From: Candidatus Lactobacillus pullistercoris | GTDB taxonomy: Bacteria > Bacillota > Bacilli > Lactobacillales > Lactobacillaceae | Direction: 5' to 3' | Assembly (NCBI GenBank): GCA_018883635.1 | Contig: JAHLFT010000065.1 | Span: 1 to 34,475, forward strand | DNA length: 34,475 nt | Part shown: positions 31,473-31,712 of the stretch, one piece after another | Position numbering within the stretch: the stretch's first letter is position 1 | How the letters are laid out: the number at the start of each line of letters is the position of its first letter | Program-made: the position numbers and the translations under genes | The notes under the pieces: generated by a model | The model's database searches: none | What the model was told of the DNA's origin: nothing | What the model saw: only the letters and a program-made list of their open reading frames with translations

Positions 31473-31483
31473 TTATCTTATAG

Positions 31484-31512
31484 AAAGCTGGCCTTGTGTC
31501 AGCTTTTCTTTT
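31484..31512 (+). terminator. Intrinsic terminator after rplS
   Basis: AAAGCTG-GCCTTGTGT-CAGCTTT followed by TCTTTT. Confidence 0.75.
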
Positions 31513-31519
31513 GCGCAGT

Positions 31520-31548
31520 TTGACACAAAAGAAAACTATTGATATATT
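31520..31548 (+). promoter_or_regulatory. Near-consensus sigma-A promoter of the candidate intergenic RNA
   Basis: TTGACA (31520-31525)-N17-TATATT (31543-31548), with TGA before the -10 (extended -10 form). Confidence 0.8.
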
Positions 31549-31554
31549 TAAAAT

Positions 31555-31670
31555 TATAAAAATAAAAATAGGCTTTTATGCTTATTTTTGACTACGCTTG
31601 ACTAGGTAGAGGTAGACTAGTTGGACAACGTGGTAATCACTATTTCGATTTTCGAAATAGTGATTTTTTT
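31555..31670 (+). ncRNA. Candidate small structured RNA of unknown function
   Basis: Starts about 7 nt after the -10. P1 AAAAATAGGC/GCTTATTTTT (31564-31589, 10 pairs); P2 ACTACG-c-TTGACTAG ... CTAGTTGG-acaa-CGTGGT (31591-31634, 6+8 pairs with G-U); P3 is the terminator stem. No credible ORF. Confidence 0.7.
31635..31670 (+). terminator. Intrinsic terminator of the candidate RNA, upstream of the NUDIX gene
   Basis: AATCACTATTTCGA-TTT-TCGAAATAGTGATT, 14-bp perfect stem, then T tract. Confidence 0.93.
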
Positions 31671-31678
31671 ATTTTTAC

Positions 31679-31687
31679 TGGTATAAT
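31679..31687 (+). promoter_or_regulatory. Candidate NUDIX gene promoter, extended -10 (TGGTATAAT)
   Basis: ACTGGTATAAT just after the terminator T tract and 25 nt before the ATG. Confidence 0.65.
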
Positions 31688-31712
31688 AAAGCCATTACGA
31701 GGGGGAAATAAA

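Follow-up and report, generated by a model that had tools for sequence, protein, structure and literature searches.

Gram-positive trans-acting sRNAs that are independent of Hfq, e.g., the CiaR-controlled csRNAs of streptococci and ArgX of Lactococcus, are short, intergenic, and intrinsically terminated, and are likely to pair through an exposed loop. ArgX of Lactococcus sits downstream of argR, a locus differing from the rplS-NUDIX gap considered here (PMC6586332). Few studies of sRNAs in lactobacilli were found in the open literature, and a search of the open-licence literature gave no description of the present locus. An sRNA as such is a known kind of molecule; the candidate family itself is new. 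The locus lies in a 34.5-kb window, i.e., the whole stretch of DNA that was analyzed, and its position and hairpin shape recur in three related species, so that it probably encodes a genuine and hitherto undescribed regulatory RNA. The reading that we favor, with somewhat better than even confidence, is an independently transcribed, lineage-restricted, non-coding sRNA of ~115 nt that probably acts by base pairing and has the loop of its hairpin P2 as interaction site.

The gap between rplS and the NUDIX gene (31520-31670) contains a promoter, the hairpins P1 and P2, and a 14-bp terminator, one after another (Table 1). The upstream gene encodes ribosomal protein L19 (Pfam PF01245) and the downstream gene a NUDIX hydrolase (PF00293). 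The promoter consists of TTGACA, 17 nt, and TATATT, with a TG ahead of the -10. It has 11 of 12 matches in addition to the TG, and neither strand of the window has a second site of this kind; shuffles give an expectation of 0.1 promoters of this quality per 34.5 kb, and one in 2000 shuffled gaps has one. An independently transcribed small RNA is expected to have its own promoter and an intrinsic 3´ terminator, and the locus appears to possess both. RNA polymerase would start at this strong promoter and transcription would stop at the terminator, two steps for which sequence and conservation speak. A discrete RNA of ~115 nt is predicted, with its putative start ~7 nt past the -10 and its putative end within the T tract. 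The self-contained unit from promoter to terminator was described in a first-pass annotation of this DNA, and it recurs with the same layout in three other Lactobacillus species. The extended -10 promoter and the 14-bp terminator of that description hold as well, the latter with a 3-nt loop ahead of the T tract, and its 10-bp P1 (31564-31589) was essentially right, the predicted stem being 11 bp.

Table 1. Positions of the features in and around the rplS-NUDIX gap, numbered from the first nucleotide of the window.
Feature	Position	Strand	Basis
Terminator-like hairpin of rplS with T-rich tail (stem AGCTGGC/GTCAGCT, then TTTTCTTTT); sets rplS apart from the unit	31482..31510	+	Gap fold
Sigma-A-type promoter, TTGACA-N17(TG)-TATATT	31520..31548	+	Sequence match; conserved in three other species
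Predicted non-coding transcript, ~115 nt	31555..31670	+	Fold z -8.0; syntenic homologues
Hairpin P1	31563..31590 (approximate stem limits)	+	Position kept in relatives, sequence not conserved
Hairpin P2	31591..31634	+	Covariation in upper stem; model matches in relatives
P2 upper 8-bp stem	31598-31605 / 31617-31624	+	Covariation
P2 apical loop GUAGAGGUAGA, conserved purine-rich element, proposed interaction site	31606..31616	+	Identical in L. kalixensis
Intrinsic terminator, 14-bp stem, 3-nt loop, and T tract	31635..31672	+	Stem-loop at 31635-31665
TGGTATAAT, extended -10 of the probable own promoter of the NUDIX gene	31687..31695	+	Read from sequence; present in L. kalixensis too

Gene rplS was found in 71 of 75 Lactobacillus genomes, and the DNA downstream of it was compared in 68 genomes other than that of the window. 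In most of the genus, rplS is followed by a terminator only and then directly by the next gene. The unit is located directly 3´ of rplS in three other species, L. kalixensis DSM 16043 (G026), G020, and the diverged G073. In the first two, as in the window, it precedes a NUDIX gene on the same strand. This arrangement, seen in three of the four carriers, is what would be expected if the unit were a cis-acting 5´ leader of the NUDIX gene, an attenuator or riboswitch with the terminator as its switch. We give this explanation little credence because the unit in G073 lies between rplS and a convergent signal-peptidase-I-like (lepB-like) gene with no NUDIX gene next to it, and because the NUDIX gene has a promoter-like site of its own, an extended -10, just past the terminator. 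The convergent neighbor in G073 breaks the constant association and thus makes the unit independent of NUDIX. Furthermore, the related species G042 has the NUDIX gene and a gap of 115 nt without the unit, and inspection of the unit showed no obvious alternative antiterminator pairing and the Rfam comparison no riboswitch.

The unit is dispensable, since G042 lives without it. In the rplS tree, the window, G020, G026, G073, and G042 belong to a supported group that comprises 22 genomes, within which G020, G026, G073, and G042 group together (94/92). The four carriers do not form a resolved clade in it, and loss of the unit in G042 would be the simplest reading. The gene after rplS varies greatly across Lactobacillus (L034-L101), e.g., phosphorylase-like, NUDIX, UDG, and lepB genes, and this suggests that the position is a site of frequent gene turnover. 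In five genomes (G060, G013, G029, G005, and G027; L069, L075, L076, L078, and L082) a gap of 250-400 nt separates rplS from a uracil-DNA-glycosylase gene and carries the conserved pair TGTGGAAT ... TTATCCACA. The second of these is an exact DnaA-box consensus and, in four of the five gaps, forms the loop of a terminator-like hairpin rich in GC. A full cluster of DnaA boxes was tested there and not supported; the element may be a DnaA box that stands alone or a further structured RNA.

Comparison of the four carriers shows that the parts of the unit are unequally conserved. The promoter, P2, and the abutting terminator persist, whereas the sequences of P1 and the terminator are almost wholly replaced, yet still form hairpins. 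All four promoters have an unchanged TTGACA and TG motif. Between the window and L. kalixensis, P1 and the terminator cannot be aligned; at the apex of P2 the two share an exact match of 22 nt, ACTAGGTAGAGGTAGACTAGTT, compared to at most 15 nt in shuffled pairs (n=150). In both, the P2 loop has a tandem GGUAGA-GGUAGA. The P2 stem of G020 is different (AAGAUAG/CUAUCUU) but pairs, and AGGUAG is retained in its loop. G073 has a weaker promoter (TTGACA-16-TATTCT), a much longer first domain, and the hairpin ACUGACUAG-GAGGGGAGC-CUGGUCAGU, which a terminator of 16 bp directly abuts. Its homology is argued from position, from architecture, and from the similarity of P2. The purine core of the loop (GGUAG-like) is thus kept in G020 and in part in G073. 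The picture is one of an sRNA gene retained by a few species in which the structures at the ends turn over fast and a single hairpin loop is retained.

The predicted transcript folds at -39.9 kcal/mol (z -8.0), a value equalled by none of 200 shuffles, and the z-score without the terminator is -4.4. P2 on its own is modestly beyond chance (z -2.3). Its minimum-energy fold is a slipped form with a 7-nt loop at -13.3 kcal/mol, compared to -10.4 kcal/mol for the form with 6 bp, a 1x4 internal loop, 8 bp, and an 11-nt loop, which is suboptimal by energy. Covariation favors the upper 8-bp stem of the latter even though it is not the minimum-energy form. Across the four species, all 32 cells of this stem are paired and four of its eight pairs are changed on both sides. 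The covariation score is reached by 1 of 500 shuffles and slid controls are far lower, on an alignment that has four rows only and hence thin statistics, to which the G073 row was added after its sequence had been seen; the hairpin itself was defined before alignment. The form of P2 proposed in the first-pass annotation therefore stands for its upper stem and not, as a whole, for the fold of lowest energy. Decay of P2 without compensatory changes, which that annotation named as evidence against the RNA, was looked for in the relatives and not seen, G042 being without the entire unit. A conserved RNA structure with compensatory changes is thus indicated, as far as four sequences can tell.

These changes also bear on the possibility that the unit is an mRNA that encodes a very short peptide and uses the loop as its Shine-Dalgarno sequence. 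In each species, an AGAGG/AGGAGG-like loop does lie 6-11 nt ahead of a possible start. The resulting peptides (LDNVVITISIF..., MQQKTTASFSFD, LATALFMFYM..., and LEHHFSHLCG...) are unrelated, and most of their frames begin with TTG and most continue through the terminator. The stem changes preserve pairing and not codons. A small peptide product was rejected for its lack of conservation among the four species, whose short ORFs are unrelated; conserved coding capacity appears to be absent, and we regard a peptide mRNA as highly improbable. A transcribed remnant devoid of function, or a palindrome acting at the DNA level such as an operator, would be in line with the absence of the unit from most of the genus. 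This too is improbable, as four species retain promoter, P2, and terminator though the flanking sequence has been replaced, and as conservation is higher in the loop than in the arms, the opposite of an operator.

The distribution of the unit is narrow. Covariance-model searches of the genus and of 301 family genomes gave no convincing members beyond the four, and a pattern search for the exact P2 motif of the window in 401 family genomes found only the window and L. kalixensis. Matches to model R1 in G056, G033, G062, G003, G028, G060, G013, and others were rejected, their context being without the promoter-P2-terminator layout; most resemble coding sequence or other promoters. R2 matches outside the four carriers were likewise judged by context and not accepted. 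The G056 match recurs with the same flanks in G297 and is unrelated to the sRNA. L110 and L198, from G056 and G297, the latter of another genus, are almost the same in sequence and include a perfect hairpin, GAACAATTAGGTAGACTAATTGTTC; the segment that they share is probably mobile or a contaminant and has nothing to do with the sRNA. A Bathyarchaeota MAG (L106) has an exact P2 match as well, a 19-mer that we attribute to chance. Searches of plasmids, phages, and viral contigs for a mobile origin gave no match.

How might such an RNA work? P1 and the terminator hairpin may cap and stabilize the ends of the RNA, and P2 would present the conserved purine-rich loop on a stem that, from its sequence, has been maintained by compensatory change. 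The loop would be the contact site and would most likely act as a seed for pairing with pyrimidine-rich, CUACCU-like stretches in one or more mRNAs, the translation or stability of which would be altered with no need for Hfq, as in other Gram-positive sRNAs. The retention of one hairpin loop narrows the search for the target to this loop. When the loop complement was searched in two genomes, a perfect 12-nt complement was found once elsewhere in the genome of the window (L138; G000:C53:13378-13389, minus strand), in sense orientation and 84 nt past the start of an open reading frame of lipoprotein type. We claim no target, because G026, G020, and G073 have no match to this gene with the sole perfect complement. 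Shine-Dalgarno mimicry on 16S rRNA was considered and rejected. Shuffled loops bind the anti-SD equally well in 42% of cases for the window, 30% for G020, and 3.7% for G073; as only the G073 loop beats its shuffles, anti-SD pairing is not supported as a shared property.

Alternatively, the RNA may be structured and non-coding and its P2 loop may bind a protein, as a decoy or sponge, and not an mRNA. A hairpin that, like P2, keeps the core of its loop and has compensatory changes in its stem is typical of protein sites, the tandem GGUAGA shared by the loops of the window and L. kalixensis would fit, and no conserved target complement of the loop was found. The single copy of P2 per transcript is poorly suited for titration and no candidate protein was identified. 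CsrA needs a GGA core, which the loop in the window lacks. On balance, we find a protein sponge unlikely. In a further and improbable reading, the loop, with its tandem GGUAGA in the window and L. kalixensis and GAGGGGAGC in G073, would not be a pairing seed but the place where a novel Lactobacillus RNA-binding protein or the ribosome docks. If true, the RNA would be a sequestering one, specific to this lineage, and its type has not been described in lactobacilli. The preferred reading of a base-pairing sRNA and these alternatives concern a candidate that has a promoter, a terminator, and a covarying hairpin, and that can be tested in a named species whose type strain has been sequenced, L. 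kalixensis DSM 16043, where the RNA would be ~135 nt long.

The locus was called a candidate undescribed structured small RNA in the first-pass annotation, which could name no known family for it. Three syntenic homologues and the compensatory changes in P2 support this, as does Rfam 15, which gave no family at gathering threshold and sub-threshold matches no better than chance; a riboswitch or known RNA was rejected for lack of an Rfam match. The best sub-threshold match is the streptococcal sRNA SpF01 (RF02425; 23.3 bits, E 0.37), mainly through the terminator hairpin. Its gathering score of 55 is far above this and P1 and P2 are unmatched, so the candidate is not a member. Ribosomal protein leaders (the L10 leader, RF00557, and the L19 leader) likewise adjoin a ribosomal protein gene; the L10 leader scores 16.8 bits, its gathering score being 44. 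Unlike these leaders, the unit follows rplS and is set apart from it by a terminator-like hairpin and a promoter of its own. The csRNAs and ArgX show no sequence or covariance match, and the loop of the unit is purine-rich rather than C/U-rich. In its organization, the unit nevertheless resembles the Gram-positive Hfq-independent sRNAs in being short, placed between genes, and equipped with an intrinsic terminator and an exposed loop.
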